The notes under the pieces are model-generated. The model did no database searches and had not been told where the DNA came from. It saw only the letters and a program-made list of their open reading frames with translations. DNA of 64,000 nt, from positions 1 to 64,000 of the forward strand of contig JANWVC010000014.1 in the NCBI GenBank assembly GCA_025057755.1, in the 5' to 3' direction. The position numbers and the translations under genes were made by a program. Shown in pieces: positions 3,001-20,833 of this stretch. Each line of letters begins with the position of its first letter. The first letter of the stretch is position 1. Origin of the DNA: Limisphaera sp. (lineage in GTDB: Bacteria; Verrucomicrobiota; Verrucomicrobiia; Limisphaerales; Limisphaeraceae).

Positions 3001-5658
3001 ATTATACGCGGTATCCAGGAAAGAAGTGTCGAGCGTGCCGTCCGAATACAATCGGGCAAAACTTCGGCGCGGCGTTCCGTTGTAAGTATCGAAGCTTCCC
3101 CCGATGTAAATCAGGTCACCCCACAACTCAATGGCATAGATCGGGCCATCCGTGCCTCGACTACCAGGGTCGAACTCGGGGTCCAAGGTCCCGTTAGCTA
3201 ACAGCCGGGCAATGTTATTCCTGGGACTTAAGTTGACCCGACTGAATTCCCCGCCAATCAAGATCCTGCCATTCGGTTGAATACGAATGGCATAGACCCG
3301 GCCGTCCGTGCCCGACCCGGGCTGGAAAGTTGTGTCCAACTCACCGGTGCCCAACAGTCGCGCAATCCCGCCTCGGATTTGACCTGCGACCGTATTGAAT
3401 TCACCGCCGATCAACAAGCGATTATCCGGTTGCAAAGCCAGCGCCCAGACCGGCCCATCGGGACCAAGGCCAGGATCAAAACTCATGTCCACCGAACCAT
3501 CCCGATTTAAGCGAGCCACATATCGTCGCGGGATCCCGTTCACGACGGTGAAGTCCCCACCAATATACACTTTCCCATCCGACTGTGCGACGACTGCCCA
3601 AACGGGTCCGTTGGGGCCGTCTCCGGGTCGAAAAGTTGCATCCAAAACGCCGTTTCCGTCGATCCGCGCTACCCGCATGCGACTCTGCCCCGCATAGGAT
3701 GTAAAGCCCCCCGCGATGACCCACTGCCCCCCAGGAAAAGGGGCAATACAACTGATGAAATCATCAGCCCCTCCTGTCGCCGCGAAGGTGGTATCTAGCG
3801 AACCATCATCATTCAGCCGAGCGATGCGAGCCCGTGGGATCGTGTTGTAATTACGGAAATCCCCTACGATGATTGTTCGATTATCCGACTGCACTGCCAG
3901 CCCGTACACCGGACCATCTGCTCCCGGGTTGGGCAGGTTCCGCGGCGAGGTCGTGACCGGCGGCACCATGAATACCCCATAGTCAGGGTTATGATATTGA
4001 TCGACCGACCCAGCTGGCGGATCGCGATCGTCAAACAAAATCGTCACCGTGGTCTGATTGACCGTGCCTACCAAGGTGGGACGATTATCCACGTTCCGAT
4101 ACAAAAAGATCTGAAAATCCTCATTAAATTCGGTCCTCGTATCGTTGGTCACAAGCAGGTTGATGGCCTTGGATCGAAAGTCGTTTTGTCCCCAATCGAG
4201 ACTGCCGCCGCCGGGGAAACTGTAGTTTGGAAGCATTTCAAAGTCTGGGTAAAGCCCGCGGATACCAATCGGCTCGTCCGGCGGCGTCGGCGTGGCGTAA
4301 TCAGACCCCGGTTGCAAGGCAAAGACGTTGTTATCCATCTCCGCATCATTGGCATCATCGCCGGCACCCAGGAAGTTGTTTACCCGATACCGAAGCGTCG
4401 CCGAATCCCGGTTGGTCCCCGACCGCACAACCCAAATCGTAACTTGAGACCAGTACCCGTTTACGTCCTCAAGGGTCCGGTGGACCAAACGAGCGAAATT
4501 GAAAATAGCGTTGGTGGGTTGAAACAACAAATCCGGCGGATCATTCGTTCCGACCGGTTGGAAATTGCGTTCCCATATCGGGTCAATGTCTGCATCCAAA
4601 ATGCGCACGATCACGCGGCCAAAAGCTCCGTCAATCCGAGGCGGAGCAACCTCAGACGATTCATTCGGGTCCGGTCGGGCATTGGACAACACCACGGCGA
4701 AACTCCGGTTTGTCATCGGCATGCCGTTGTCAGGAACGATGGAAATCAAGATGCGTTTGGTCATCTCGCCGTGGTCAAAAACCAAGGTTCCTTCCACAGG
4801 GACAAAGTCCTGCAGGGCCACCGCCGGAATTTCCTGGCCCGGCATAAGCACGTCATTATCCGTGATCTCCTGCGTAGCATAATCCACCAACATGCGGCCG
4901 GTTGCTCCACCCACCCGCGTTACAGTCACCAACAGACCCGGTACCCCAAACTGATAGTAAGTCTCCCACGTGCTGGCATCTCCAGCGGCGACGCTCTCCA
5001 ATTCGGAGCACTGGTACACCGGCACGCGGCGCACACCCTGACGCGTGATGCGTGTGAACATGTCTTCCGTTGCAAACCGGAATACGCCTCCGGAGTAATA
5101 AGCCCAACTCAGAATCACCTCGCCCCCCGCGCCACCCAGCAACCCTGTGTTTAGTCCCACGGCGATGTAATAGACACGCCCTTCTTCGGCGTTGAACCGG
5201 AGCGCACTGCCTCCGCCGCCCACAGTCGTCAGGCCGGCTGCCCCGATCATGCCATTGGGAACTTTAATGTAACCAACGGGTGGAGAATTGTCGTTGGCAG
5301 CAACTTGCCTCAACTCCGAAAGCCGTTCGCCCGTGTACACTGCCAAGACCGTATCAGGCCCACCGGGAGTCGCCAACGTGTCCCATTGAACCTCCCCTGT
5401 CCGCGGCGCCATCCATCGATACCAAATGGAAGGAACCACGAATCCCGCATGGCTAGGTTCACCCACCTCGAATGTGGCCCGGGCCAAGTTGCCGGTCACC
5501 GTTCCATACAAACCCGTGAGTTGTTGGGCACTGGCAAAATTGTCATTGGCCGGCTGGCTCCACAATTGACAGGTCGCGGCTATCCATGTCATGCCGACCA
5601 CCAGCCAGCCTCTGACACCGGCGTTTTTCGTCCCGAGCTTGCCTGTCGCGCTGCTCAT
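1..5658 (-). CDS. Giant exported delta-60 repeat / Calx-beta protein (partial)
   Basis: The reading frame is open from the ATG at 5658 to the window edge, at least 1886 codons; the C-terminus lies outside. The N-terminus is basic then hydrophobic (about residues 1-34, ending near CQLWSQ), a signal peptide. It is followed by a PPC-like beta domain (about 35-125, starting ANDNFASAQ) and Calx-beta-like domains (about 200-540). Next come six or seven delta-60 repeats (about 570-935, each ending in forms such as DGSLDTTF), a second Calx-beta group (about 960-1470, with acidic DD ends), seven more delta-60 repeats (about 1480-1850) and the start of another Calx-beta domain. Delta-60 repeats are thought to form beta-propeller-like folds, and Calx-beta domains bind calcium in some families. 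I infer a cell-surface or secreted adhesin-like protein. It starts 18 bp after the preceding gene and is probably the last member of that operon. No catalytic domain is visible. Confidence 0.85.
110..1230 (-). repeat. Delta-60 repeat array, distal block
   Basis: About seven tandem coding repeats of 50-56 residues (150-170 bp) within the giant protein. Each carries a segment like [13 protein letters not shown] and ends in a D-G-[ST]-x-D-[PST]-[ST]-F motif. Repeat ends fall near positions 1200, 1050, 900, 750, 575, 420 and 270. The DNA copies are diverged, so recombination between them is unlikely to be frequent. Confidence 0.75.
2860..3960 (-). repeat. Delta-60 repeat array, proximal block
   Basis: Six clear and one degenerate tandem delta-60 repeats. 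The ends read [39 protein letters not shown] and DGTLDTSF, near 3805, 3645, 3490, 3345, 3190 and 3035. The last copy, near 2850, has lost the motif. The array sits between two Calx-beta groups. Confidence 0.75.
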
Positions 5659-5676
5659 AGGTTTTGCCAAAACTGT

Positions 5677-8652
5677 TTATGGAAGAGGCGGCTCCACTTG
5701 AACTCGATAAAACCGGACTCCTTGCGGAGCTGCGGGGAGTCGCACCGCTCCACGGCCTGGAAGTTGATTCAAAAGACACGGCGGATTCGTGCAGCTCTCC
5801 CCCGGCGGCAGAGGCAACACGCTGAAGTTCGTCGTCAAAACGACCCTCCAATCCTGCGTGGTGAGTGAAGTTGCCTCCCAGATCGTGTTGGTCGCGCCTC
5901 TTATCGAAGGCCAAGCCAAAACAATCCACTGCGTCCCATCCGGGGATGCTGACAGCCGCACATCTTCGGGCACAAGGATTGGAATGGTATCCAAAGCGTT
6001 GGGGGTGCCGTCACCGTCCAAGTCCAGTTCTTTTGAAAGGACTAATGCAGTATTTACCTGCAATTGCCGTGCCCCAACCTGGAGATTGGTTGAACCATAA
6101 TACCCACCGGCATACGTTGGCACCCACCGCAATCGTCCGTTGTTATATCTGCTTGAATGAGCTATTTCGGCTAGACGATGGGTTCCCACGATCAAGTCTG
6201 CGTAGTAAATGACCAGGTTCGGGGCGATGTTCAGTGCTACCAAGGCGTTATTATGCTCATTAGTGGCGTGATTCAACAGAACCAGTTGGTCTACATATAG
6301 GGCATTGCTCGGGCCTACACCTTGAAACACGAACATTGCACCAAAAGCCCCGTCCAGCACGAGGCGGCCGATCGCCATGTTGTTCGTAAAACCGGAAGGG
6401 GTTGGGCCTCTGTCTTCCCCAGCCCATAAGGTGACATTATAAGCGTACGCCGGTGCAATGTTAGTAATGGTCGTCCCCCGCAAATCGCCTAATCGCGGCC
6501 GGAGGGTCAAGGTTAGGCCGTCCCGGGTCAACCACACGTTGTTCGTTGTATCTCCATCGCCCAAAAACTCCGAGGCGCCAAGAATCAACCGGCGGCCTGC
6601 CTCCACCACTTGGTTGGTCAGGAGCAACCGGCTTCCTTGCAACTCAACGTCTCCAAAGGGTGCAGCCACTTGTCCCCATTGATTCGTCGCCCGGCTGCCC
6701 AGTCGTACTTCCGTCGCACTCAGACGGAAGGAACCAACTGTAGCCACGATATGTCCCTCATTTTCAAAATGGCGGGCTTGAATGTCCCATGCCTGCGCCG
6801 TTAGCCAGCCTTGGTTAACCACTGCCTCGTAAGGCTCCTGAAAAACGGAAGGATAGTAAGGCGGCCGACGAATTCCTGCAAACGTGGCCACGTTGCTAAT
6901 GGCGATGACTCCATAATTAGTCAAATATCGTAGCCTCGGCAAACTGTCCGCCCATGTGATCCGGTTGGTCATCAAGTTTAATTCCCCATATGGGTTGAAC
7001 GGCGGGACACTCCAGGGCGGTTGTATGTAAGCCACAGGTGGGTTGGTCGTCAGGGTCAGCCTCTCCGCATCGATCAACAAGCTGCCGAAGACATTCAGTT
7101 TATCTGCGATCCGAACCTCCCGGGGCTGTCGCGGGCTGCTCAGGACAAGATCTTCGATCCTTGTCTCAGCACTGGGCAGAAAATAGTTGCTTACCATTAA
7201 CACCTTGTAAATTAGCCCGACACCGTCGCTCGTGATGTTCGTCCACATACCGACCCATGCATGCAAATCACCCACGATACGGGGAATTCTCGGAAACTGT
7301 AGGTGTCGAATTTGCAGTAGGCCGTTGGTAGATCCCAAGCGAACAGCACTATACGGGGCTTCGATCTGGGCCTGGGCGTTATCCGCCAGATGGTTCGTGG
7401 CTTCCAACCGCAGATAACTTGGCGCCGAGATCCGCGCGTCTCGCAAATCCAAAATCTGACGAGCCACAAGCTCCACCCGCCCGGCAACATTCGAAAACAC
7501 GCTGCCCGGTTGCGTTTCGGATGGGACCATCGCCGCCGGGATAATCCGGGTTCGATAACCGGAATTCGTAATATCCAGGACCAAGTTGGTTCCGATTGTG
7601 TAAAACCAGGAATTGGAATCGAACGTCGTTCCCCCTACGACAGGCATAGTCGAGTAAAACGAAGGCTGCACGCCGCTCAACCAGAAGTTGAAGGGGCGAG
7701 AAGCGCCTCTTGGGCTCAACGAAGAGGCATAAAGCGTTCCATTGGTGAGATTAAAGATATAGTTATTCGGCGTGAGAAATTCCATAAGATACAGATCGTT
7801 GGTGGTGCGCTCCAGCGTCACAAGGTTCGAGAATACGCCTTGCCACCGGATTACGTTGAACCAAGGGGTCATCCGCACTTCGGCCTGGGAGATCTCCCCG
7901 CCGTTATAGACATACACCGCTTGGATGAGGAGACTATTATTAGGCAGTTGGGTTGTCAGAACATGACTGGTGAAGCCCACGGGCAAAACTACCTGGCTAA
8001 GACTGAGCCCCGTAAGCTGCCTGACCTGATGCAAAGGGCTTTGCAACGGCGGCTGGTTGGCACCAAACCTTCCGAGGATCTGATTTGTGTCAAAACCCCA
8101 ATGGAGATCATAAGTGCGCGTGCTTAAGTTGGTATCTCCTGCCTCTTGAAAGCGCACTTCGCCCCCCCGCAAATCGACGTTATCTCCCGTAAGATTCAAC
8201 TGGCCCAGAGACGATATCTCAAGTCGCCCGCGATTGATAATATTGGTTGCCTGCACCAGCAGCCAGAGTGCACTGCTGACTTCAGCACCGTTCGGATTCA
8301 CCAAGCCTTCGTTGTGGAACACGCTCGCAGGACGACGCTGTGGATTAGATATGGGATTAAAGGACTGAAAACGGTAACCGGGATAGCCCCACCATCGGCC
8401 TCGGTTAGTGATATAGAGCATGTTCTGGAACTCAATGGGCTGCAGCAAGGCCAGATTGGTCAATCCGATAGTCCCCAAGTTGAGAACGCGGTAAGCGTCA
8501 ATCGCAGGGAGCGGTTCCGGCGGAAAGGTGGCTTGCAAAACGCCAGTATTTAAAAACAGCTCCTGAGTGGCCCTTCCGTTGGGCAGTGCCAGACCAAGCA
8601 GCATTCCCACTCCACCCGCCGCCCATGTGGCTTTCCAAGTGCGTATGCTCAT
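5677..8652 (-). CDS. Exported Thr/Asn-rich beta-structured surface protein, 991 aa
   Basis: The ATG at 8652 begins a signal peptide (hydrophobic stretch about residues 9-24, cleavage near GRATQ). The body is long, low in Cys and Lys, and rich in T, N and aromatic residues in strand-like patterns such as LEISSLGQLNLTGDNVDLRG. That resembles the filamentous-haemagglutinin/beta-helix type, but I recognise no named family. Near the C-terminus LDLDGDGTPNALD is a thrombospondin type 3-like calcium-binding motif. The protein ends in a roughly 90-residue module finishing FYRV, also seen in neighbouring exported proteins. Its ATG overlaps the stop of the upstream gene (ATGA, 4 bp), so translation is probably coupled. 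I infer a secreted or surface structural protein of unknown role. Confidence 0.75.
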   Translation of the reverse strand: MSIRTWKATWAAGGVGMLLGLALPNGRATQELFLNTGVLQATFPPEPLPAIDAYRVLNLGTIGLTNLALLQPIEFQNMLYITNRGRWWGYPGYRFQSFNPISNPQRRPASVFHNEGLVNPNGAEVSSALWLLVQATNIINRGRLEISSLGQLNLTGDNVDLRGGEVRFQEAGDTNLSTRTYDLHWGFDTNQILGRFGANQPPLQSPLHQVRQLTGLSLSQVVLPVGFTSHVLTTQLPNNSLLIQAVYVYNGGEISQAEVRMTPWFNVIRWQGVFSNLVTLERTTNDLYLMEFLTPNNYIFNLTNGTLYASSLSPRGASRPFNFWLSGVQPSFYSTMPVVGGTTFDSNSWFYTIGTNLVLDITNSGYRTRIIPAAMVPSETQPGSVFSNVAGRVELVARQILDLRDARISAPSYLRLEATNHLADNAQAQIEAPYSAVRLGSTNGLLQIRHLQFPRIPRIVGDLHAWVGMWTNITSDGVGLIYKVLMVSNYFLPSAETRIEDLVLSSPRQPREVRIADKLNVFGSLLIDAERLTLTTNPPVAYIQPPWSVPPFNPYGELNLMTNRITWADSLPRLRYLTNYGVIAISNVATFAGIRRPPYYPSVFQEPYEAVVNQGWLTAQAWDIQARHFENEGHIVATVGSFRLSATEVRLGSRATNQWGQVAAPFGDVELQGSRLLLTNQVVEAGRRLILGASEFLGDGDTTNNVWLTRDGLTLTLRPRLGDLRGTTITNIAPAYAYNVTLWAGEDRGPTPSGFTNNMAIGRLVLDGAFGAMFVFQGVGPSNALYVDQLVLLNHATNEHNNALVALNIAPNLVIYYADLIVGTHRLAEIAHSSRYNNGRLRWVPTYAGGYYGSTNLQVGARQLQVNTALVLSKELDLDGDGTPNALDTIPILVPEDVRLSASPDGTQWIVLAWPSIRGATNTIWEATSLTTQDWRVVLTTNFSVLPLPPGESCTNPPCLLNQLPGRGAVRLPAAPQGVRFYRVQVEPPLP

Positions 8653-10805
8653 AAGCGAATGGTCAGTGTGTACGACTGCAATCGGCGTCGGCCTTGGGCA
8701 TCCTGAATCTGAAGCACGAAATCATAGATCCCGGCCACCCGGGGAGTACCTAACAGGGCGCCGCCGGGCGAAAGTTCCAGACCCAGTGGCAATCCCGGTG
8801 ACCCTTCTGCCAAAGAAAAGACGTACGGTGGTTGTCCTCCTTCGACCGTGAAGATTACCTGAAAATACTGGCCCACCACCCCGTACGGCAAGGCCAACGG
8901 TTGAACGTTGAGCGCGCTGAAGAGCATGTCCTCCAGATCGCGCAGACTTGCTCCTTGCGGGTAAACCACCGGAGCATTGGTGCTGCCGTCGAAACTGGCC
9001 CAGATGAAATTCGTGGTACTATTCCATTCACTCAAGCCGCTGAAGGGAAGGAAGGGGTCATACACATTAATATTCATGGGGCCGACCCGGTTGAAGCCGA
9101 TCTGAATATCCGGTTCAATGTGACCGGGCCCGGCCAAGCCCGGGATCGCGTTCGTCATGATGAAGGTCGCGGCAGTTTCTGTCCGAACAGCAGCGAGGAG
9201 GTTCAGATCAGTTGCTGTGAACAGAAAATCTGGCGCCACCACCACGCGCTGCAGGTGCTGCCGAATTACCCGGTTGTTTGTCACAGCATTCAGCGTGTAG
9301 TAATTGGTAATTGGCTGGAAGAATCGTCCGAGCAAGGAGTCATACTGCGCTCGGACAAACTGCATTCGCTCGATGCCCTGACGGTTCATGGGCACGTTGG
9401 TTTCACAACTCACTGGGTGGATGACCACCGCGTGGTTTGTGAAATATGTATACACATTCTGCGAAAACTGTTGGCCCAACTGGTTTGTGGCCACCGCCAC
9501 CGGATTTGTGACGACGGTGAGGATTGGCGGTAGGTTCGACAGCAAAACGTAACCGCACAAAGCATTCGTTGGGAGAATAAAGAAGTCACCAGACGGGATG
9601 TTCAATACCACGTGATTGGTCGTAACATTCGTGCAGATGCCTGCGGGAAATCCCCATGTGTTCTGACAGGGCCCAACATTGGTCGTCACTAGGGTGGCTA
9701 GCGTGTAAGGAAAGTACCGGTTTGTAACCACGTTTGCGAACGTATGCCGATAACGGATTACGTAATTGGTTACATAGTTTGTAGCCCAAACCAATCCTTG
9801 CCAGGGCGCAGGCGCCCATGGCGCATTCGTGAAATAGGCCACGATATTAGTCGTTATCTCGGTGGTGTAAACAGGATCAGTTTGGGCAATGACCAAGCCA
9901 GGATACAGCGTTTGCAACGCAAGCGCATCGTTTGTCCAGGCTGCTGCCACCAGAGTGTTCAAGTTCGAGCTGATCAACAATTGAGTTGTTTGATAGTTGG
10001 TATAAAACAACAGGCTATCTGACGTAATCGCTTCCCAATTGACATTGTTGCTCCGCCACAAGTATCGCAAACCGCCTACATCGTCCCGACTTAGCCCAGT
10101 CAAGTAAGCGCCATAATTGAACCATGCTGTTTCAGCCACGGGATAGCTGCTTTGTGCCAGAGGATCCACTTGATACTCGTAAGCATCGGCTAGTGGATCC
10201 GGGCCGCTGCAGATTTCGACGATCTGGTAGGAGTAAAGCACCCCGTTGACGTAGGCTGTGGGTTCAAAGGTGACAGGATCGAAATTCCGGCGGATTACGT
10301 GATAAATCATGTTAGGACAAGACAGCCCGGGAATCGGGTACCGGTCTCGCAAGCACCATGTCCACCGCACCGGTTCGGCCAAGCCGAGTTCTTCCAAAAT
10401 CAGATGCATGGCGATGGATTTTAGGTCGAGCAAGCCGAGCGCCTGGGCCCGGTAATTATAGCGAACCACTTCTAAGGGAAACTCAGTCAGATCAGGGCTA
10501 TACGACGAAACGTTTCGTAGGCCATTAAAATGAGCAATGGCTTGTTCCAACGCCGCCACGCCGTTTGAGCCGAAGTAATCAAGAAACGATGCGTCATATG
10601 CGTAATAGACGACCGGTAGATTCCACCGATACTCTTCGCCCAAATTCTTTGGAGCGCCGATGTCTGCTACCGAGGGCAAGTTATACCCAATCGCGGGCAC
10701 TTGATATGCCTCATTAACCGGGCCCAAGAGGCTGAAAGCATACATGTTAGCCCCTACGGCCAGCAGCAGCAGCAGCCCGCAACATGCTTTGGTACGGTGC
10801 CACAT
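8649..10805 (-). CDS. Exported protein with degenerate matrixin-like N-domain and putative Ig C-domain, 718 aa
   Basis: A signal peptide covers about residues 1-24 (MWHRTK then a Leu/Ala-rich core, ending MYAFS). The first 250 residues look like a matrix-metalloprotease-type fold: AIAHFNGL followed by a helix H-L-I-L-E-E-L-G-L-A-E-P. This aligns with the zinc motif HExGHxLGLxH but keeps only the first His, the Gly and the second Leu. The middle (about 260-520) is very rich in T-N pairs and aromatics, with a few Cys. The C-terminal 70 residues (starting VEGGQPPYVFSLAEGS, then LPLGLELSPGGALLGTP) match the putative Ig domain He_PIG. It lies 7 bp after the 627-aa gene and overlaps the next by 4 bp. 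It is probably catalytically inactive and surface-located; its function is unknown. Confidence 0.75.
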   Translation of the reverse strand: MWHRTKACCGLLLLLAVGANMYAFSLLGPVNEAYQVPAIGYNLPSVADIGAPKNLGEEYRWNLPVVYYAYDASFLDYFGSNGVAALEQAIAHFNGLRNVSSYSPDLTEFPLEVVRYNYRAQALGLLDLKSIAMHLILEELGLAEPVRWTWCLRDRYPIPGLSCPNMIYHVIRRNFDPVTFEPTAYVNGVLYSYQIVEICSGPDPLADAYEYQVDPLAQSSYPVAETAWFNYGAYLTGLSRDDVGGLRYLWRSNNVNWEAITSDSLLFYTNYQTTQLLISSNLNTLVAAAWTNDALALQTLYPGLVIAQTDPVYTTEITTNIVAYFTNAPWAPAPWQGLVWATNYVTNYVIRYRHTFANVVTNRYFPYTLATLVTTNVGPCQNTWGFPAGICTNVTTNHVVLNIPSGDFFILPTNALCGYVLLSNLPPILTVVTNPVAVATNQLGQQFSQNVYTYFTNHAVVIHPVSCETNVPMNRQGIERMQFVRAQYDSLLGRFFQPITNYYTLNAVTNNRVIRQHLQRVVVAPDFLFTATDLNLLAAVRTETAATFIMTNAIPGLAGPGHIEPDIQIGFNRVGPMNINVYDPFLPFSGLSEWNSTTNFIWASFDGSTNAPVVYPQGASLRDLEDMLFSALNVQPLALPYGVVGQYFQVIFTVEGGQPPYVFSLAEGSPGLPLGLELSPGGALLGTPRVAGIYDFVLQIQDAQGRRRLQSYTLTIRL

Positions 10806-10812
10806 AAACGAT

Positions 10813-12696
10813 TCAGCGCAGACGAATCACTCGATAAAAAGCTGAATGGGATCCTTCGACCCGGACGCTCTCCGCTGTGCCCCGGGCGAAACGGGGCTCG
10901 CCCAGGTTGGTCCAGCCAGTCAGGCCGCCTGCGGATTGCACCTGATAAACCAGCCCTGGTTGCGTATTCCACTCCAGATACCAACCCATCGGGGTGTGGC
11001 GCAGATTCACGCGCAGGACACTGTTTGGATTCCGCGGATCTGTTCCGGCCAAAAACTCTTCCCCATTGGTAGCTCCATCACCGTCGGAATCCTCTTGGGG
11101 ACGCGGCCAAGCCCACAAGTCCGGTCCGAAGTAAGCCGCCATCCATTCGGAAGGAATCCCGCCATACACCCAAGGCCCATAGGTGGTATTGCTGGCGGCG
11201 GCCGAGAGTGGCGACCGTTGCCCGTTGGTGAGCACATAGGCTACCCGGAAGCTGTAAGTGGTGCTATGCAAAAGATTGGAAATCGTGACAACATTTCGCG
11301 GGGTTACCACCGTGGCTTGGGGCGGTTCGGCTCCGTTCATATAAACTTCATAAGTTTGCACAGGCAGGCCGGCCACCGTTGCCCAGCTTACAGAAAGGGC
11401 ATTGGAGCTGAGGACACTCACTACAGGAGGATCCAAGGGTTGAAGCGGCAAGGCTGCGGAGGCTAATCGTTGCGCCTGCAGATCAAAGCCATGGGCCACG
11501 TCAGTGAAGCTGCTCCAAACCACCAGGAACCGGTTGCTGCCATCGGAGGCGACCACCGGATGGATTTGCTGACTCCGTGTGGTTGTGTTTAGCTGGATCT
11601 CTCCGCCCAGCGGCATCCCGCCAAGGTCCAGCACGCGTCCGAAGACTCCCTCGCGCGAACCGTCTTGGGCCAGGCTGGTCCAAACGACCACGACTCGTTC
11701 TCCGGCCACCGCTACTCTGGGAGCAAACTGATCTCCATAGGTATGAGTGTTCAGACGGCGGACGGCGCCGCCGTTACCCCGGGCGTCAAACGCGCGCGAC
11801 CAAATATCCCAACTGTTCTGGCGGACTACGGTGTCTTTTTGGCCCCACACGACGAGAAAGCCGCCTCCGGGCAGGGCTGCGACCTGAGGGTTGGCACACA
11901 CATTGGTTTCCATGTTTATCAAGATTTCACCCGAAACAGGAGACCCGTCGGCACGGAACAACCGCGCATAAATATCCACGCTGTTCTCGAAGCGCTGCTG
12001 TTCACTGACCCACACCACCACGAATCGACCATCCGACAGACCAGCAACGGCTGGAGTCCGCTGGTTATAGGGCGTGGTGAGATTGATTTTGAATTCTGTG
12101 CCCAGCGGTTCACCGGTAGGGCTGAATTTGCGGCCAAACACATCCAACATGGGGCGGTTACCCCCTTCTTGATTCCAACTCGTCCAGATGATGACGACAC
12201 TGTTGTCGTTTAACCGCGCCAAGGTAGGAGTCTGCTTGCCAGAGTTTGTGTGTACATTGACGCGGATTTCGCTGGTGCGCCATAGACCGTTGCTGCCCAA
12301 GAAGCGACTCATGACTTGTGCCTGACTTGAAGGTCCACTCAGCCAAGTAAAGACAGCCCCCCCGTCAGACAAGGTAATTACAGCAGGTCGAGTCTGATCT
12401 CCTTGCGCTGTTTGATTCACGCGAAACACGCTTAACATGCCGGAAAAGCTGGCGTCCAGACGCCGTGCACTGATACCCTGCCCCTGGCCATCCGTAAATT
12501 CATCTTCCCAGACGACATATCCGCCCTGTAGTCCAACGGCCGCCGCGGGCTGGACCTGGTCGCCGGCTAAAGGTTCGGTGAGTGCGTACTCCCCGCCCTG
12601 GAAGACGACATCACTCTGGGCCATGATCCAGACCGGCAACACTGTCGTCCCAAGCAGGCCCCAAACCCGGCAACGATGGGTTATCCAAGCAGCCAT
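10813..12696 (-). CDS. Exported repeat protein with FN3 domain and FYRV end module, 627 aa
   Basis: The ATG at 12696 was chosen because it starts a clean signal peptide (MAAWITHRC, then a hydrophobic core, ending near IMAQS); upstream in-frame GTG/TTG codons are less likely. Residues about 25-410 hold roughly seven repeats of about 55 residues with a pattern like P.VA.L.DG.FVVVW.S, typical of beta-propeller-like repeats in exported proteins. A fibronectin type III-like domain follows (about 415-505, LPVQTYEVYMNG...TYSFRVAYV). Then come DSDGDGATNGEEFLAGTDP, a calcium-binding type 3 motif, and a C-terminal module with YQVQSAGGLTGW and FYRVIRLR. It is the first of four co-directional exported-protein genes and starts 27 bp after the exonuclease stop. 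No enzymatic motif is seen. Confidence 0.75.
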   Translation of the reverse strand: MAAWITHRCRVWGLLGTTVLPVWIMAQSDVVFQGGEYALTEPLAGDQVQPAAAVGLQGGYVVWEDEFTDGQGQGISARRLDASFSGMLSVFRVNQTAQGDQTRPAVITLSDGGAVFTWLSGPSSQAQVMSRFLGSNGLWRTSEIRVNVHTNSGKQTPTLARLNDNSVVIIWTSWNQEGGNRPMLDVFGRKFSPTGEPLGTEFKINLTTPYNQRTPAVAGLSDGRFVVVWVSEQQRFENSVDIYARLFRADGSPVSGEILINMETNVCANPQVAALPGGGFLVVWGQKDTVVRQNSWDIWSRAFDARGNGGAVRRLNTHTYGDQFAPRVAVAGERVVVVWTSLAQDGSREGVFGRVLDLGGMPLGGEIQLNTTTRSQQIHPVVASDGSNRFLVVWSSFTDVAHGFDLQAQRLASAALPLQPLDPPVVSVLSSNALSVSWATVAGLPVQTYEVYMNGAEPPQATVVTPRNVVTISNLLHSTTYSFRVAYVLTNGQRSPLSAAASNTTYGPWVYGGIPSEWMAAYFGPDLWAWPRPQEDSDGDGATNGEEFLAGTDPRNPNSVLRVNLRHTPMGWYLEWNTQPGLVYQVQSAGGLTGWTNLGEPRFARGTAESVRVEGSHSAFYRVIRLR

Positions 12697-12723
12697 AGCG
12701 AGACTCGTTTCCACCAAGTTTCT

Positions 12724-13719
12724 TTAACAATCGATCCGTACATTGTCCAACTTTTCTCCCTGACCGGCCGGACCCGATTGGCAACGCCCTGCACAAACCT
12801 CGATAAAAAGGTCAGCTTGCTCCGAGATTGGCGTGTCATTGGGCAACCCCTGTAACAAAGATCGGAATCCCCATTGCTGATAAAGTGTGCGCAGCGACTC
12901 CGTATTCGGCGGACGCAAGGCCAATTCGGTCGGTTCCAATCCCAACGGAAGGTCGGTACGAAGCCGAATGATTGATTGGTTGCGGCGAATCTGATCGGCC
13001 GACTGGCGCAAGGCTTCGCGAATGCGCGCTGGCTCGACTTCTGCCAGGCGATGCATCAAGCCTTCCATGGAGCCAAACCGGTTGAGTAACTTGGCGGCCG
13101 TCTTTGGCCCGACGCCGGGCACACCGGGGATGTTGTCAGAAACATCGCCTACCAAGCTCAACCAGTCCACCACCTGTGCGGGTGTTACGCCGGTTTTGGT
13201 CCGTACTTGTTGTTCCGTCCAGATTTGGGCGGTTGGGTCGTGCGGTTGAATCAAACCAATGGCGGCCGACACGAGTTGCATGAAATCCTTGTCCGAGCTG
13301 GCAATGAGGACTTCCCAACCACGGCCTTGCGCCCAGTGTGCCAGTGTAGCGATCCAATCATCTGCCTCCACGCCGGGCCGGCAACCCGTGGCCACGCCCC
13401 GTGCTTGCAACCAGGTCGCGATGGGATTCAACTGGATCCTCAGGCCCTCAGGTATTTCAGGGCGCTGCGCCTTATACTCCGGCAGCACCTCCACCCGTTC
13501 GGCATCCAGACCACCGTCCCATAGGACGGCTGCGTGGGTGGGCTCCACATTGTGCAGCAGCTTCTCGAATGCCTTAATGAAGCCGAAAATGGCGTTTGTG
13601 GGACGACCGTCCGGACCGCGAAGATCCCGGATGGCATGCCAAGCACGGTAGGCATAGGCATGACCGTCTACCAGCAACAGCCGTGGGTAAGCCACGGGTT
13701 TGGTTGTCGACGCTTTCAC
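12724..13719 (-). CDS. Stand-alone 5'-3' exonuclease (FEN/Pol I N-domain family)
   Basis: A 331-residue protein matching the flap-endonuclease domain otherwise found at the N-terminus of DNA polymerase I. Metal-binding acidic clusters are intact: LLVDGHAYAYRA (about 14-25), WDGGLDAERVEVLPEYKAQR (about 68-87), GVEADDWIA (about 116-124) and SSDKDF (about 141-146). The helix-hairpin-helix region is GDVSDNIPGVPGVGPKTAAKLL (about 193-214). No polymerase domain follows, so it is a free-standing nuclease acting on 5' flaps or RNA primers in replication and repair. It lies between the pilus-like genes (91 bp upstream) and the exported-protein genes (27 bp downstream) on the same strand. The context gives no clue beyond possible co-transcription. 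Confidence 0.93.
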   Translation of the reverse strand: MKASTTKPVAYPRLLLVDGHAYAYRAWHAIRDLRGPDGRPTNAIFGFIKAFEKLLHNVEPTHAAVLWDGGLDAERVEVLPEYKAQRPEIPEGLRIQLNPIATWLQARGVATGCRPGVEADDWIATLAHWAQGRGWEVLIASSDKDFMQLVSAAIGLIQPHDPTAQIWTEQQVRTKTGVTPAQVVDWLSLVGDVSDNIPGVPGVGPKTAAKLLNRFGSMEGLMHRLAEVEPARIREALRQSADQIRRNQSIIRLRTDLPLGLEPTELALRPPNTESLRTLYQQWGFRSLLQGLPNDTPISEQADLFIEVCAGRCQSGPAGQGEKLDNVRIDC

Positions 13720-13810: not shown

Positions 13811-16675
13811 TCACGGCTGTGTAGCCCCCGGCTGCGGCGGAATGGTGGTTTGCGCAAAAGGCATCTCATCATCCGAGTGCAGCGGGTTTCCAGCCGGATC
13901 AATGATCCGCGGTGTCACAAAGATCAGCAGATTCTTCTTTTGCTTCTGATCAGATTCACTTCGGAAAAATCGGCCCAAAAGGGGCAGGTCGCCCAAGACC
14001 GGCACCTTGTCGCGCACCTTGGCGACATTCTCGCTCAGCAAACCACCGAGGACGACGGTTTGACCGTCCCAAACGATTGCTGTGGTCGTCACTTGACGAA
14101 CGCGGAAGATCGGCAGCGGCAGTTGAGCAGTCAGAGGCACGCCGATGGCGCCCGCGCCAACTGATTGAACTTGAGGAACGAATTGCCGAGCTGTTTCTGT
14201 ATCGTAACCGATGAATTCGGTCACAGTTGGAAGGATCGTAAGTTGGATGGTGTAGCCATCGGCTGAAACAACGGGCAGGACGTCCAGCGTGGGACCGAAT
14301 GGCAATGAGGCGATGTCATAGCCGATTTGAGCACCGACGACGCCCGCGCCTCCGGTGCCTGTCAAGCCTCCGGCACCCCCAGCGGCCGTTTGGCCTGTGC
14401 TGAGACCGACGACTACAGACTTGATGTCCACCAAATTTACCTGTGCCTGACGTCCGCTAAGCGTTGTAACTTCCGGTGCTGTCAACAGTTCGACCCCTTT
14501 ACGTTGTTCCAAAGCTTGAATCGCCATTCTGAATTGCGGATCCGTGAGGATTCCAGTCAGCGTGAACAGGGAAGGCGCGTTCAGTTCGTTTCGCAACCCT
14601 GAGGTCAATCGCGCATCGGAAGTGGAGGGCAGAATCAAAGTGTTGATGTCCGTCACGGTTGCCTGGCCCGGCTGGCCGGTCCCCGGTTGGCCTGTACCCG
14701 GTTGACCTGCTTGGCCGCCGCCCGTCTGACCGGTCAAACCGCCCGGAATGAAGACACCAGGGAAGGTCCCCGCCGGGTTGGCAGTCGAAGGTGCGCCAGA
14801 ATAAGAGGGCGCAGTGCCTGCTTGCAGACCAACTCTACCGCCCCCCATCAACCAATTGCCCAAGTACCAATCGAACCCCAGTGCGCGTGCGTCTTCCTGC
14901 GAGATGTCGATGAATTTGGTCCGAATGTTGACCTGAGGGGGCGCTTCGTTGAGCACCTGAATGGCAGCTTGGATGATGTCCAGGTCCTCCGGCGTCGCCC
15001 GGACGATTAAGCGACCTGCGCGATCATTCCAAAAGACTGCCTTGGGCGGATTCAGATCCACTCCGAGGGTCAGGAAGTATTCGCGTACAGCCGCGCTCAC
15101 GTCGGCGGTTGAGTTGGTCCGGGTGATAAAGCGCAATCCCCCCCCACCCACGCCCGCGGCACCGCCTCCAGCGCCGCCGCCAAAGCCACCGCCGAATCCG
15201 CCGCCAAAGCTGACACCTCCGGCCACATTGACGCGTGGGACGATGGTACCCAGCGTCATGCCGCCGCCACCTCCAAACCCGCCCCCGCCGAATCCACCTC
15301 CGAACCCACCGCCGCCGAACGCGCCACCCCCGCCCCCGCCCGTGGAAGTCGCGAAAGCGCCAAACTGGGTTCCTTCCACGGATTCAAGTCCCTGATAGAA
15401 TGTATTCGGGTCCACTTTGAAAACGCGGGTCTCCAAACGAAGTGGTTCGGGGCCGCGCATGGAGAAGACCACAGCGTATTCCTCGATGGAATATCTAATG
15501 GGGCGTTCGGCGACGCGAACGATCGCGTCGAGCACGTCTGCCAACCGGACGTCAGTCAGTGGAGGGACAAGTTTGATGGAGATCTGGCCTACGTCTACCT
15601 GCTCGGCCGGTTGGGTGGGAGCTGCCACCGGCAGGCCTGTGGTGGGGTCGATCGCAGTGGGAGCAGCACCAAATCCAGCAGCACCCAGAGCGCCCGCAGT
15701 CGAGGCCTGTTCCGGATTGGGGTTGATGATGAAATTAATGCCGCGTTTGTCGGGGTCGCGTCTTTTTGCCTCCTCGTAAAGATGGCGCACGACCTCTTCC
15801 AACGGCAGGCCGTCGTATTGGACCTGTTCAAGCCGAATGCGATCCAGCTTACTCATAATGAGCTGGCGTCCACGACCGACGTGCACCAGGTTCGTGCGCG
15901 CGTAAGGGTTGGGCACCGGCAATTTCTCGCGCGTTGCTTTGGTTTCCCATGCTTGCTCCACCTCCACCAGAGCGGTTTTGGCCATGGCCTCGCGCTGACG
16001 GCCGGCTCGTCGGTAACGGGCATCTTTGACAAGATCAAGGTAATAAGGTGCAGCCCGGTTTTCCGGATCTAGTCGCAGGGCCTCATTCAGCTTGGCTTCC
16101 GCTTCTTCCAGTTTTCCCAATTCCCATAACAACACGCCGTCGCGGACGAGTTTAGCGGCTTCCTCCTTTTCTTTCCGCACCTCCGGCACGCGTTGCAGTG
16201 TTTCCTCATGCGGTGTGCGCGTATATTGGGCCGCCAAAGCAGCGTCGTTTTCCTGTTTGAGTTTCAACGCTGTTTGATCGTTGGGGTTAACTTTCAGCAC
16301 GCGGGTGATCTGGACCTCTGCCTCTTTCAAATCCCCTCGCTTACGCGCTTCTCGCGCCAACGTCAATCGCACCCGTGTCAGACCTTGGACGGTCTGCTCC
16401 GTTTCCCTAGGGATGCCAGAACCAATCCTTTGGGCAAGGTTCCAAGCATCTTCATAGAGTTTGGCAGCGACGGCGAGGTCACCGCGCGTTTCCGCCGCTG
16501 CGGCTTCTTGAATCTTTTGGCGTAAGAGTACGGTGTTGGCCTGACGATAAATGGCTTCTTGCGCAGCAACGCTTGCACTATCGGCGGCCGGTTGTTGCGC
16601 AGTCGCCGCAGCCAAGCTTGTGACCAGGATCACAAAACACAACCGGGACTTATGGACGTTGGTCATAACTGGCAT
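13811..16675 (-). CDS. Secretin (GspD/PilQ-type), Amuc_1098-like
   Basis: A 954-residue outer-membrane secretin. The signal peptide covers about residues 1-26. A helical region with tetratricopeptide-like repeats (about 40-215, AEVQITRVLKVNPNDQTAL and LNEALRLDPENRAAPYYL) precedes N-type domains (about 270-600). These contain a long Gly-rich insert (about 444-514) and a KH-like segment, IVRATPEDLDIIQAAIQVL. The secretin core (about 690-930) holds LTAPEVTTLSGRQAQV and VPVLGDLPLLGRFFRS, and the protein ends in a Pro-rich tail. Secretins form ring-shaped outer-membrane channels for type II secretion or type IV pili. It is the last gene of a four-gene set ordered PilM, Amuc_1100-like, Amuc_1099-like, secretin, the arrangement known from Akkermansia. 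A second Met at 16666 is an alternative start. Confidence 0.9.
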   Translation of the reverse strand: MPVMTNVHKSRLCFVILVTSLAAATAQQPAADSASVAAQEAIYRQANTVLLRQKIQEAAAAETRGDLAVAAKLYEDAWNLAQRIGSGIPRETEQTVQGLTRVRLTLAREARKRGDLKEAEVQITRVLKVNPNDQTALKLKQENDAALAAQYTRTPHEETLQRVPEVRKEKEEAAKLVRDGVLLWELGKLEEAEAKLNEALRLDPENRAAPYYLDLVKDARYRRAGRQREAMAKTALVEVEQAWETKATREKLPVPNPYARTNLVHVGRGRQLIMSKLDRIRLEQVQYDGLPLEEVVRHLYEEAKRRDPDKRGINFIINPNPEQASTAGALGAAGFGAAPTAIDPTTGLPVAAPTQPAEQVDVGQISIKLVPPLTDVRLADVLDAIVRVAERPIRYSIEEYAVVFSMRGPEPLRLETRVFKVDPNTFYQGLESVEGTQFGAFATSTGGGGGGAFGGGGFGGGFGGGGFGGGGGMTLGTIVPRVNVAGGVSFGGGFGGGFGGGAGGGAAGVGGGGLRFITRTNSTADVSAAVREYFLTLGVDLNPPKAVFWNDRAGRLIVRATPEDLDIIQAAIQVLNEAPPQVNIRTKFIDISQEDARALGFDWYLGNWLMGGGRVGLQAGTAPSYSGAPSTANPAGTFPGVFIPGGLTGQTGGGQAGQPGTGQPGTGQPGQATVTDINTLILPSTSDARLTSGLRNELNAPSLFTLTGILTDPQFRMAIQALEQRKGVELLTAPEVTTLSGRQAQVNLVDIKSVVVGLSTGQTAAGGAGGLTGTGGAGVVGAQIGYDIASLPFGPTLDVLPVVSADGYTIQLTILPTVTEFIGYDTETARQFVPQVQSVGAGAIGVPLTAQLPLPIFRVRQVTTTAIVWDGQTVVLGGLLSENVAKVRDKVPVLGDLPLLGRFFRSESDQKQKKNLLIFVTPRIIDPAGNPLHSDDEMPFAQTTIPPQPGATQP

Positions 16676-16715
16676 CTGGGAATTCGGCCCCCCGACCGAC
16701 AGTGTTGAGCGACAC

Positions 16716-17522
16716 TCATCCTTCGGTTCGCATCCTGATGGTGGACTTCTTACCCGTCAGGCGGTGGGACACTACCACTTCGTTCTCGGTGATGGCAACG
16801 ATATTGTAATCCTCGCCAGCCAACGTGATGCGGTCTCCCACGCGCCGGCCGGTAAAGGTGCGTTTTTCGGGCTCGTAACGAAGGTCAGCCAAGTAACCTT
16901 CCACGCGTCGGTACGGTTGATCCTTGGACAGGACCACGCGTTCGGTGCTGTCGCTGAGTTCCAAGACCAGGGCGGTGGGGTTCTCGGGCGGACCTTGGAC
17001 TTCCCGAAGAGTGAACAGGTCTTCCCGCTTCTCATTGAGGCGCGCAAAGACCTGTCGTTTCCGCCGGCCCGTCGGGGGGGACGCCGCCTCACGTTCGATC
17101 CCAATGAGATAACCGGAAGGCGTCCCATCCGTCACAGGGCCCACCGAATCAAATGTCAGGATCAGATGCAGAGGCCGAATGGCCGTGACTACGGCAGCTT
17201 CCGGGCCTGTTTCAGTCCCCCGAGCCAGTTTGATGAGGTTCCCTCCGGCAGTTCGCTGCCACTGCACGGGATTAAACAGGTTGTGGGGCCGGCCGAAATC
17301 CAGGTGCAACGGTGTCTCCAAGCGGTGAAGCACGGATTCCATGGACGCAAGATCGAGTTGCGGCAGCGGTTGAATCGGTCGACGGGTAATCCGGTTTCGC
17401 TGTTCTTCGAGCTGGGATCGTGTGTTTGATATTAAGATCGGCACGGCCGCCACCGCCAGAGCGGCGACCGCCAAGACGACGCCCAAAATAATTTTTTCGT
17501 AATGTTTCTTGAACCAGTCCAT
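16716..17522 (-). CDS. Amuc_1099-like inner-membrane pilus-locus protein
   Basis: A 268-residue protein with a short basic N-terminus (MDWFKKHYEK), one membrane helix (about 11-32) and a soluble, probably periplasmic, remainder. A charged segment around 35-60 is followed by beta-rich sequence with VGDRITLAGEDYNIVAI near the C-terminus, a PilP-like feature that would suit contact with the secretin. Its ATG directly follows the upstream stop (TGAATG), so translation is probably coupled. Identification rests on position between an Amuc_1100-like gene and a secretin, on size and on topology. I did not recognise a named domain. Likely role: linking the inner-membrane PilMN/Amuc_1100 platform to the secretin. 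Confidence 0.7.
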   Translation of the reverse strand: MDWFKKHYEKIILGVVLAVAALAVAAVPILISNTRSQLEEQRNRITRRPIQPLPQLDLASMESVLHRLETPLHLDFGRPHNLFNPVQWQRTAGGNLIKLARGTETGPEAAVVTAIRPLHLILTFDSVGPVTDGTPSGYLIGIEREAASPPTGRRKRQVFARLNEKREDLFTLREVQGPPENPTALVLELSDSTERVVLSKDQPYRRVEGYLADLRYEPEKRTFTGRRVGDRITLAGEDYNIVAITENEVVVSHRLTGKKSTIRMRTEG

Positions 17523-18782
17523 TCAGTTTTGCGTCTGCTCCGAAAGCAGCTTCACCACGTGGAGGAGCATGGTGACCCGCAACGGCTTTTCATCAAGCAC
17601 AGTCTGCAAGGTTCCTTGTGCACCTGCTCCCTGTGAACCGGTCGTTCCGGGAACAACCGGCATGGCAGCGCCCGGAGGCGTCATACCAGGGGTGGGCACC
17701 GGATAAGCAGGGGTCGCTGCACCCGGCTGAGCTGGCGTCAAAGGTCGGTACGGAATGCCGCCTCCACCAGGCCGCCCCAATCCGGGCTCGGCGGGGGCAT
17801 AGCGTTGGGGACCATAACGCGCGGCCGGGCCTGCTCCGCCTCCAGGCCGAATTCCATAACGCTGGGCATAAACCGTAGCCGGGTCACTGGCAAGCTCGGG
17901 CGGTGGTGCGTAACGAGGAAACGCGGCTGGAGGTGTGGGCATCTCTGCTTCCGGCAATCCGCCCGTGGGCGGCAGCCCGTAACGCCGCCGATAATAATCC
18001 TCCAGCCCTGGCTCAGGCGCCAACGGACTTGTCAATGTAGCGGGCTCCACATCCACAGCTTTAACCAAGATGCAGTAAGGGGAACTGTGAAACCCGGCCA
18101 ACACGGCTGCCAGTTCGGGACTGAAACAACGAAAGGTGACTTCGTAAGGTGTCAGGATGGCCAGTTCATTAGTAGCCGAACGCTGCTCCAGATAATCCGA
18201 CACAGGTCCTTTGTAATCATCGGAAGAGACCCGTTCCCTGCGGAGGTTGTCCAAGCTATTGATTTTGGCCGCAAAGAGGATTTCGCAGATGGCCTTAATC
18301 TCCCCGAGCTGGACCGCCAAGCGATCGAGGCTGCCCGGAGCAAATCGCATAAGATTCTTTTGGGCTTCAAATGAGAAACTGTAATCCGGCGGCAACTGAA
18401 CGCCCACGGATTCGGCAGTGCGACGCAATTGGTCCAACGTTCGCCATAATTGTGGTGTGAAGAGTTCAGCTGTGACCCGGTTGGTCCCGGTGACCTGGGG
18501 AATGGGCGGGGGAGCGATGAAATAGCGCGCGGTGCGATTGAGGAAGGCCCGTAACTGTGCCTGTTGATCCCGGGCGGCTTGAATGTTGTTGACTCGTTCG
18601 TTTCCCGGGTTGGGGTTGAGGTTGTAAAGACGGTTCAATTCCTCGTATTGCGCCGTGAGCCGTTCGAAAACCTCATTTTTCTGCTGCAAACTGGAATAGA
18701 GGTAGAAGATGGCCAGTCCCAGGAGGATCAAGGCGACGGCACTGCTAATAACAAACAACAAATTGCGTTTGACCCAATCCAT
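17523..18782 (-). CDS. Amuc_1100-like (PilO-like) inner-membrane protein
   Basis: A 419-residue protein. It starts MDWVKRN with a membrane helix (about 8-29), followed by a coiled coil (QQKNEVFERLTAQYEELNRL, about 33-52) and a PilO-like domain. In that domain, LGEIKAICEILFAAKINSL (about 177-195) and SPYCILVKAVDVEPA (about 258-272) resemble the LxAIxxLVxxL and VxSIRIR positions of Amuc_1100. A Pro/Gly/Tyr-rich linker (about 285-385, with RYGxxP repeats) leads to a conserved end, LRVTMLLHVVKLL. Amuc_1100 of Akkermansia muciniphila is an outer-surface/periplasmic protein of a pilus-like locus known for TLR2 signalling. Whether this relative shares that activity is unknown. It lies 95 bp after PilM and abuts the next gene. 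Confidence 0.75.
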   Translation of the reverse strand: MDWVKRNLLFVISSAVALILLGLAIFYLYSSLQQKNEVFERLTAQYEELNRLYNLNPNPGNERVNNIQAARDQQAQLRAFLNRTARYFIAPPPIPQVTGTNRVTAELFTPQLWRTLDQLRRTAESVGVQLPPDYSFSFEAQKNLMRFAPGSLDRLAVQLGEIKAICEILFAAKINSLDNLRRERVSSDDYKGPVSDYLEQRSATNELAILTPYEVTFRCFSPELAAVLAGFHSSPYCILVKAVDVEPATLTSPLAPEPGLEDYYRRRYGLPPTGGLPEAEMPTPPAAFPRYAPPPELASDPATVYAQRYGIRPGGGAGPAARYGPQRYAPAEPGLGRPGGGGIPYRPLTPAQPGAATPAYPVPTPGMTPPGAAMPVVPGTTGSQGAGAQGTLQTVLDEKPLRVTMLLHVVKLLSEQTQN

Positions 18783-18877
18783 GGTCTTAGCGGTCCTGGG
18801 CAGGCTAAGCTGACCGAACTGGAATTGGTTGCCCGACGTACGATGACAAGTCCAAGAGTGCGATGCGCTTCATGGTG

Positions 18878-20833
18878 TTAAAAGATGCGCAGGGGTTTGC
18901 GAAGTTTCACGTTGATGCCGAAGGTATAGGTGCCTGTCTGTTCATCCGGCTGGATGGTGCCTTCGAACTGGGTGCCCTCTGGATTGACCATCGGGCTCTG
19001 TTGGAGTTCGCGCAATACAGCAATGGCCAATTCGGTGTTGGCGGAGGGCGAAACCCGGCTCAGGTCCACTGCACGGCAATACAAGGTGACGGTGGCAATT
19101 TCGTTTGTGTTTGTGGTTTGGGCTGTTGAAGTCGTTGCATCGGCCATGCCTGTGGCGGGCATTTCAGGGTTTTCCGGCTCGGCGGTCGCGGGCGGGGCTT
19201 CTGGATTAACCGGGGCTGCACTTCCGCCGGGGAATCGGATGCCATAGCGCTTTTCATAAATTGCCCGAATCTCGGGGTCCCAACCGGCTCCGGCGGCGGG
19301 CTGGGTCTGCTGCGCGCCTGCATCGGCTTCCACTCCGGGCTCGGCCGTGCCACTGTATCGAGCGCTGAGGTTGGCAGTGAGGAAGCGTTCGACCCAAACG
19401 CCGGCGTCTGCGCCCAGGCGATTTTTCGTTGCGTTTTCCACTTCAATCAACACACGACGCAATTCCGTCATGAAGTCGGCCCAGTAATACCGTTGCTCCA
19501 TCCAGGCGGTCAGTTGAGCAGCCTGGTCCTGGAGGCGGCGCAGCTCTGCGTAAGCTCGTTTGAACTGCTGCTCGCGGATCTGAAGGGGTTGCACATCATG
19601 GGACACCGTTTTCAGATCCTCCTCCATGACGCGGGCAAGGCGTGTGAACAAAAAGCCCACCGCAGCCACAACGACCACCAAGCTGTAGGCCGAGGCGAGG
19701 AAATAGGGCTTTTTTTGATTAAAACTCTGCCAACGCAGCGTGCTGGGCGGCATTAGATTGAGTTCGACGGGGCACTGGGCCACATTGCGGAGTCCCAACC
19801 CGACCAACTCGCCCATGGTATGAGCCACCTTCGCCAGTTCCTCCAAGTTAATCGAAGGATCGATTTCCACCGACCGGAGGGGATTGAAGTACTCCACCGG
19901 CAGGTTCAGTTTCTCAGCAAAGAACTGTGCGGTATAGGGCATGATGGAGGCGCCCCCCGAAAGGAACAGCCGCTGCGGGGCTGACCCACCTTGTTGGCCG
20001 CGGTAGAATTGGATGGTCTGGTTGACTTGGATGTGTAAGCGGGTCATGAACTGCCGGGAGATCTTCGCAATGGCCGCCTGGTGTGGATTCTCCGGCTCTT
20101 CATAGGCCCCCCCCAGACTGACGAAGCCCTCAGCGATCTTGAGTTTCTCCGCCTGTTCCCAGCGGAGCTTGGATTCTTGGGCGAAATCCTGGGTGATCGC
20201 ATTGGCGCCGAGGTTGATACTGCGGGCGAAGACCTTGCCCTTCTCAAAGAACAACACGTTGCTCGTTTTGGCGCCAATGTCCAGGAGCATGCAGCATTCT
20301 TCGACGTCGGCGTAATTGTATCGAAATGCGTTGCAAAGAGCCGCAGGAGCTACGTCTGTCAGGATCAGGTTCAGTCCAGCTGTTTCGGCGATGCGAAAGA
20401 GTCCCTCGACGATCTCTGATTTGATGGCCACCAAAAGCACTTCGAGTTCTCCGGCTGCGCTAGTCCCGAGGATTTGGTAGTCCCAAACCACCTCTTGGAG
20501 TGGGAAAGGCACGTTTTGCTGGGCCTCGTACTGGATGATCTGGGCAATCTTGCCCGTGTCCACCGGCGGCAACTTGACGAACTTGGAAAAGACATGGAAC
20601 CCGGGGGCGCAAACATTGAGGTCTTTGGCCTTGATCTGCTTTTCCGCCAAAATTTCCTGCAATGCCTTGAGGCTGACCTGTTCCCGAGTGGATTCCTGCG
20701 AACCTTGCAAGCCCAGCGAGCGAAATCCATACTGTTTGAGCCGCAACCCACCCGCCTCACTGGATTCAAATTCCGCCAGCTTGAGGGTACCAGCCCCGAA
20801 ATCCACCGCCAGGAATGACCGTCCGGTTCGCAT
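18878..20833 (-). CDS. pilM: PilM-PilN fusion, Amuc_1101-like
   Basis: A 651-residue protein. Residues about 1-365 are a PilM actin-like ATPase: LAVDFGAGTLKLAEFE (phosphate 1), LLDIGAKTSNVLFFE (phosphate 2) and LFLSGGASIMPYTAQF (adenosine region). After ELNLMPPSTLRWQSFNQKK, the PilN-type N-terminal motif that binds PilM, a membrane helix (about 378-397) and a coiled-coil/ferredoxin-like periplasmic domain follow to the end. PilM and PilN are thus joined in one chain. A Pro/Ala-rich insert with EIRAIYEKRYGIRFP (about 525-540) echoes the RYGxxP repeats of the downstream Amuc_1100-like protein. It is the first gene of the set and is transcribed away from purH. It presumably forms the inner-membrane platform of a type IV pilus-like machine. 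Confidence 0.88.
   Translation of the reverse strand: MRTGRSFLAVDFGAGTLKLAEFESSEAGGLRLKQYGFRSLGLQGSQESTREQVSLKALQEILAEKQIKAKDLNVCAPGFHVFSKFVKLPPVDTGKIAQIIQYEAQQNVPFPLQEVVWDYQILGTSAAGELEVLLVAIKSEIVEGLFRIAETAGLNLILTDVAPAALCNAFRYNYADVEECCMLLDIGAKTSNVLFFEKGKVFARSINLGANAITQDFAQESKLRWEQAEKLKIAEGFVSLGGAYEEPENPHQAAIAKISRQFMTRLHIQVNQTIQFYRGQQGGSAPQRLFLSGGASIMPYTAQFFAEKLNLPVEYFNPLRSVEIDPSINLEELAKVAHTMGELVGLGLRNVAQCPVELNLMPPSTLRWQSFNQKKPYFLASAYSLVVVVAAVGFLFTRLARVMEEDLKTVSHDVQPLQIREQQFKRAYAELRRLQDQAAQLTAWMEQRYYWADFMTELRRVLIEVENATKNRLGADAGVWVERFLTANLSARYSGTAEPGVEADAGAQQTQPAAGAGWDPEIRAIYEKRYGIRFPGGSAAPVNPEAPPATAEPENPEMPATGMADATTSTAQTTNTNEIATVTLYCRAVDLSRVSPSANTELAIAVLRELQQSPMVNPEGTQFEGTIQPDEQTGTYTFGINVKLRKPLRIF

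Follow-up and report, generated by a model that had tools for sequence, protein, structure and literature searches.

An Amuc_1098-1101-type locus of Limisphaera and the secreted-protein genes that follow it

In type IV filament biology the PilMNOPQ proteins align the motor with the secretin. Amuc_1100 has been studied as a host-active and immune-active protein. In Akkermansia muciniphila the genes of this locus (MUL2) are tied to mucin uptake and attachment (PMC13174399; PMC12418764), and MUL2 is conserved in Verrucomicrobiales and less so in Chthoniobacterales (PMC13174399). Here we describe a related locus in a window of 64,000 nucleotides, which is the whole stretch of Limisphaera sp. DNA that was analysed. 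The closest named relative by PilM is a Limisphaera MAG (81% identical) of the order Limisphaerales, and the host is probably an environmental relative of Akkermansia.

Locus layout and its four proteins

The locus lies on the minus strand at 20833-13811 and consists of four ORFs in the order PilM and PilN fused, Amuc_1100-like, Amuc_1099-like and Amuc_1098 secretin. An earlier note on this DNA had given these coordinates correctly and had called the locus Amuc_1098-1101-type, with which gene order, topology and fold agree. The NCBIfam E-values are significant for three of the four proteins (Amuc_1099_fam is the weakest) and none of the four reaches the curated cut-off. Because the scores lie below NCBI's curated cut-offs, the proteins are distant relatives of these families and not members by NCBI's rule; judged by the scores, the matches to Amuc_1101_fam, Amuc_1100_fam and Amuc_1098_fam cannot be chance.

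The PilM-PilN fusion (18878..20833, minus strand; 651 aa, Amuc_1101-like) is made of an actin-like PilM domain, a PilN-type motif (CPVELNLMPPS), a membrane helix, a coiled coil, a linker with one RYG motif and a C-terminal domain. Amuc_1101_fam (NF045709) matches it with E 7e-147 and 490.8 bits (curated cut-off 650), and TIGR01175 for PilM gives 136.5 bits, over its cut-off of 133; Pfam PilM_2 and our alignment A3 complete the basis of the assignment. Pfam PF05137 (PilN) does not match the fusion's own PilN part.

The second gene (17523..18782, minus strand) encodes the 419-aa Amuc_1100-like protein, for which Amuc_1100_fam (NF038287) gives E 4e-14 and 52.7 bits and misses the curated cut-off of 180. 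The AlphaFold (AF2) model (pLDDT 77.9) shows a membrane helix at the N terminus along with a coiled-coil helix and a split alpha/beta domain. The comparison with Amuc_1100 proposed in the earlier note was done with Foldseek against the PDB: Amuc_1100 entries fill the first ten places with the highest possible match confidence (TM 0.60-0.71 on the target; 0.71 for 6kny), and the next is Pseudomonas PilO (2rjz), matched almost as confidently. The predicted model thus supports an Amuc_1100 or PilO-like fold, and the mismatch with this fold that the earlier note had named as counting against its reading did not appear. The alignment behind the model includes Akkermansia-type rows, and the single window protein alone already matches the Amuc_1100 model at 4e-14. 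When the profile is built from Limisphaerales sequences only, Amuc_1100 is not found in the PDB, which shows the extent of divergence, and the E of 2e-22 between profile A1 and Amuc_1100 is partly circular since A1 holds one Akkermansia-type row. The link to Amuc_1100 rests on the NCBIfam match and the model.

Between the last two core strands of the 419-aa protein there is a linker of 152 aa (21% P, 16% G, 14% A, 7% Y) which bears two RYG motifs. The earlier note had called this linker Pro/Gly/Tyr-rich and had taken it to be added. Akkermansia-type proteins have a linker at the same place (68 aa in L152; 41-152 aa across Limisphaerales), therefore that of the window is expanded, not added.

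The motif F/Y..RYG(I/L) is common to this linker and to the PilN-side linker of the 651-aa protein. In the linkers of 47 genomes it occurs 27 times, against 0.36 in shuffles, and both copies of the 419-aa model are in predicted short helices (258-268 and 301-308). The pattern suggests a candidate docking peptide. Co-variation of the motif between both linkers was considered and not retained: Fisher p was 1.3e-5 uncorrected, and on the tree, where three of four independent pairs agree and none oppose, the pairs are too few for significance, so co-variation beyond ancestry cannot be shown.

The third gene (16716..17522, minus strand) encodes a 268-aa inner-membrane protein with an N-terminal membrane helix at the position where pilP or gspC is expected. 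Amuc_1099_fam (NF042425) gives E 0.006 and 16.3 bits (curated cut-off 50), and the Amuc_1099 assignment rests mainly on locus position, on topology and on the fact that 38 loci have kept the gene. Neither a PDB profile search nor hhalign found a sequence match to PilP or GspC, and they did not support a PilP identity; from its position the protein would be the PilP counterpart. Amuc_1099 proteins outside Limisphaerales (L152:7610-8629, L139:12634-13680) carry a TSP3-like DxDxDG stretch that the window protein does not have.

The 954-aa Amuc_1098-like secretin (13811..16675, minus strand) contains TPRs (Pfam TPR_2), an N domain, Gly-rich inserts and the secretin barrel. Its match to Amuc_1098_fam (NF042912) has E 7e-115 and 384.8 bits (curated cut-off 750), and Pfam Secretin (PF00263) gives 118.1 bits, over the cut-off of 27.5.

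Downstream exonuclease and secreted-protein genes

The earlier note had ended the locus at 13811. Its coordinates are accurate for the four genes, and the operon extends beyond the 13811-20833 range, with an exonuclease and four further co-directional genes spaced by -4 to 91 bp; the last five genes, from the exonuclease to the giant protein, are spaced by -4 to 7 bp. A promoter scan gave no excess over shuffles.

The first of these genes (12724..13719, minus strand) encodes a stand-alone 5'-3' exonuclease of the PolA N-domain type (Pfam 5_3_exonuc_N, 5_3_exonuc), which is a conserved neighbour at the equivalent place in many loci. It is followed by a secreted 634-aa protein (10813..12717, minus strand; Pfam fn3, TSP3_bac) having an N-terminal repeat region, fn3, a TSP3 repeat and a C-terminal domain ending FYRVIRLR, and proteins of this type are present in 30 named loci of the lineage. 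Its match to Amuc_1099 in NCBIfam (E 3e-7) was rejected as evidence of a second Amuc_1099, only the TSP3-like stretch being common.

The next gene (8649..10805, minus strand) encodes a secreted protein of 718 aa, whose family is confined in our sample to Limisphaerales, with a 'FSLLGP' N-domain, a beta-rich middle rich in Thr and Asn, and a C-terminal Ig domain. Relatives were found in 51 of 58 genomes of its closest kin, and wherever the relative shares a contig with the 1100 gene (34 cases), it lies 5.2-8.0 kb downstream of that gene and on the same strand. One genome (G291) has two 1100-type loci, each with a linked 718 relative. The N-domain was not found outside Limisphaerales in an 85-genome class sample, where only the Ig part matches. 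This domain (residues about 50-260) has no Pfam match and shows some matrixin-like sequence features and no zinc motif. The possibility of a degenerate matrixin, hinted at by LxxLLxEQLGLA and GLTRDDVGGLRYLY, was unsupported by Pfam, PDB profile and Foldseek, the matches of the last being Ig domains, and is left as an unproven lead.

A secreted 991-aa protein, beta-helix-like by eye and with a C-terminal domain ending FYRVQVEPPLP, is encoded at 5677..8652 (minus strand), where its gene overlaps the 718 stop codon by 4 bp; a homologue adjoins the 718 gene in all of the 16 genomes fetched. The last gene (1..5670, minus strand) is cut by the contig end and encodes a giant secreted protein of at least 1890 aa, in which Pfam finds 13 DUF5122 propeller repeats and 5 Calx-beta domains, with a homologue at the equivalent place in 12 of 16 genomes. 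A similar beta domain, which closes with [FY][YF]R[VILA] and has no Pfam name, is found at the C terminus of most 634-, 991- and giant-type proteins. The same domain is seen on unlinked large secreted proteins (window 29232-33677, plus strand; L150:3010-6699, minus strand), and its sequence is possibly that of a general export or sorting domain.

The block is conserved in Limisphaerales and is closed by coaE in four loci (L167, L169, L172, L174). In Akkermansia (L152) coaE directly follows the 1098 secretin, thus the block lies after the secretin and exonuclease and before coaE. Our search of the literature, limited to open papers, did not find a Limisphaerales version of the locus with this block.

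The four downstream proteins could be unrelated cargo in a stable neighbourhood, with the complex doing only what Amuc_1098-1101 does in Akkermansia. Two observations fit this: the housekeeping exonuclease and coaE share the gene string without functional need, and the C-terminal domain of the proteins is also found on unlinked ones. The constant strand and distance of the 718 relative, its presence at both loci of G291 and the very short intergenic gaps speak against it, and we hold it to be unlikely. Linkage alone does not prove that the secreted proteins use the window secretin.

Distribution of the locus and its motor genes

Of 289 genomes sampled from the phylum, 267 have PilM relatives (251 of these below 1e-30). 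Among 58 genomes of the closest kin, 51 have the 1100 relative, and the order 1101-1100-1099-1098 also occurs in Akkermansia-type and other distant loci. Because PilM relatives are so widespread, the locus as judged from these genomes is phylum-wide and not a gut trait. Four Methylacidiphilum-like genomes have neither the locus nor any secretin. A genome without a PilM locus (G108) keeps the motor cluster, and its secretin match is broken by several stops (contig C6:72220-72626).

It had been said in the earlier note that pilins, PilB/PilT and an Amuc_1102-like gene are not adjacent, and this is correct: the locus has no pilin, PilB or PilT gene as a neighbour, no GspE/F/G-K genes were found near it, and only 484 bp lie between pilM and the divergent purH, which leaves no room for an Amuc_1102 gene. 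The Amuc_1102 family (NF042424) was not detected in any of the 58 searched Limisphaerales genomes by a model that matched in four of the eight other genomes of a control and overlooks divergent members. The Limisphaerales loci examined have no gene of the 1102 kind directly upstream of pilM. Elsewhere an NF042424 1102 gene precedes pilM in L152, L154, L155 and L158, and divergent proteins stand at this position in L157, L159 and L160. In L158-L160, which are distant lineages, a flotillin-like gene (SPFH/FloA-type by eye) is upstream of the 1102-position gene.

Genome-wide, 7 full PilB/GspE-like ATPases, 4 PilT-like ATPases and 45 N_methyl matches were counted, along with five secretins. Three secretin clusters (contigs C24, C32 and C3) resemble type II systems, and the remaining two are the window locus and a second, canonical pilM-N-O-P-Q operon on C20 (51000-66000; L150:7394-12187, minus strand) with separate pilM and pilN. 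On C6 (208000-227500; L143:7003-19500, plus strand) there is a pilB-pilT-pilB-pilC-pilin cluster that has neither a secretin nor alignment genes of its own. Each of the Akkermansia-type genomes G232 and G021 has only one pilB-pilB-pilC cluster, in which every gene best matches the C6 cluster (51-57% identity), and both also have a second, weaker secretin. In G232, too, a long distance separates the locus (near 0.77 Mb) from the PilB cluster (2.42 Mb), so unlinked motor genes are the rule and no peculiarity of the window genome. Since the only pilB-pilB-pilC cluster of the Akkermansia type matches C6 best, the orthologous C6 cluster is most likely the motor of the window locus, although the C20 operon competes for it and could be its true partner.

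The missing motor and pilin neighbours and the absent 1102 could also be taken as signs of a decayed or non-functional remnant. Its long ORFs are intact, the conservation across order and phylum is strong and the orthologous motor cluster is intact, which together make this scarcely credible.

A type II kind of secretion would be another use of these parts, in which a short pseudopilus of a GspL-M-C-D-like system mainly expels the linked proteins and no long pilus is made. A PilM joined to a PilN is the layout of GspL, the best generic secretin model is GspD (134.8 bits vs 109.1 for PilQ), large Sec-signal proteins are encoded within the same operon and the pilin-like 1102 gene is absent. Yet the PilM half is over the PilM cut-off, the C6 cluster has PilT, a retraction ATPase absent from type II systems, and the three other clusters of the genome already resemble such systems. 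We regard this reading as possible but doubtful.

Proposed role and comparison with known systems

The locus is probably a type IV filament alignment and secretin complex which takes its motor from elsewhere and would serve surface attachment with, or secretion of, the linked proteins. The alignment and secretin complex itself is well supported, and its use may be as follows. The ATPases, platform protein and pilins would be supplied from elsewhere, most likely by the C6 cluster, and this motor would build a filament or pseudopilus at the inner membrane. PilMN, the PilO-fold protein and the 1099-type protein would align it with the 1098-type secretin, and this would be the way out of the cell for the filament or for proteins that the filament pushes. 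The four large beta-rich proteins may be surface adhesins or binding proteins working with the machine, either as filament-associated adhesins or as its substrates, and the role would be attachment to polymers and polymer capture. It is quite unlikely, in our estimate, that the locus is a dedicated secretion and surface-display machine for its own giant beta-rich proteins, with the [F/Y][Y/F]R[V/I/L/A] domain as export or sorting signal, the RYG motifs as docking peptides and 1102 replaced by these proteins.

What is added here to the earlier note is the longer operon, the lack of a detected 1102, the assignment of a motor and the motif in the linkers. The PilO-fold reading of Amuc_1100 is supported in a distant relative, a probable motor cluster is named, and one order is seen to carry surface proteins of its own with the locus. 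This suggests that the machine is old and served attachment or secretion in general, and that it did not arise as an adaptation to the gut. The secreted proteins are candidates for what the machine handles, and a Limisphaerales isolate would allow them to be tested with no host involved, which separates an old envelope function from immune effects in the gut.

The Amuc_1098-1102/MUL2 locus of A. muciniphila shares with the window the order 1101-1100-1099-1098, the PilM-PilN fusion, the Amuc_1100 fold, a TPR-bearing secretin and an unlinked motor cluster. In contrast to MUL2, the window locus is without 1102, all its proteins are under the curated family cut-offs, its 1100 linker is longer and has RYG motifs, its 1099 is without the TSP3-like stretch, and its lineage has the exonuclease and four large secreted-protein genes before coaE. 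The type IVa pilus complex PilM-N-O-P-Q has the same order of parts if the 1099-type protein is taken as a putative PilP, PilO follows Amuc_1100 among the PDB matches of the fold, and the PilN-type N-motif is retained inside the window fusion; in the window, however, PilM and PilN are fused, there is no recognisable PilP sequence and the motor is unlinked. With the type II GspL-M-C-D proteins the locus has in common a GspL-like fusion layout, a secretin and possible linked substrates, whereas the window fusion scores as PilM and not as GspL, GspE-K genes are not adjacent and the probable motor includes PilT.
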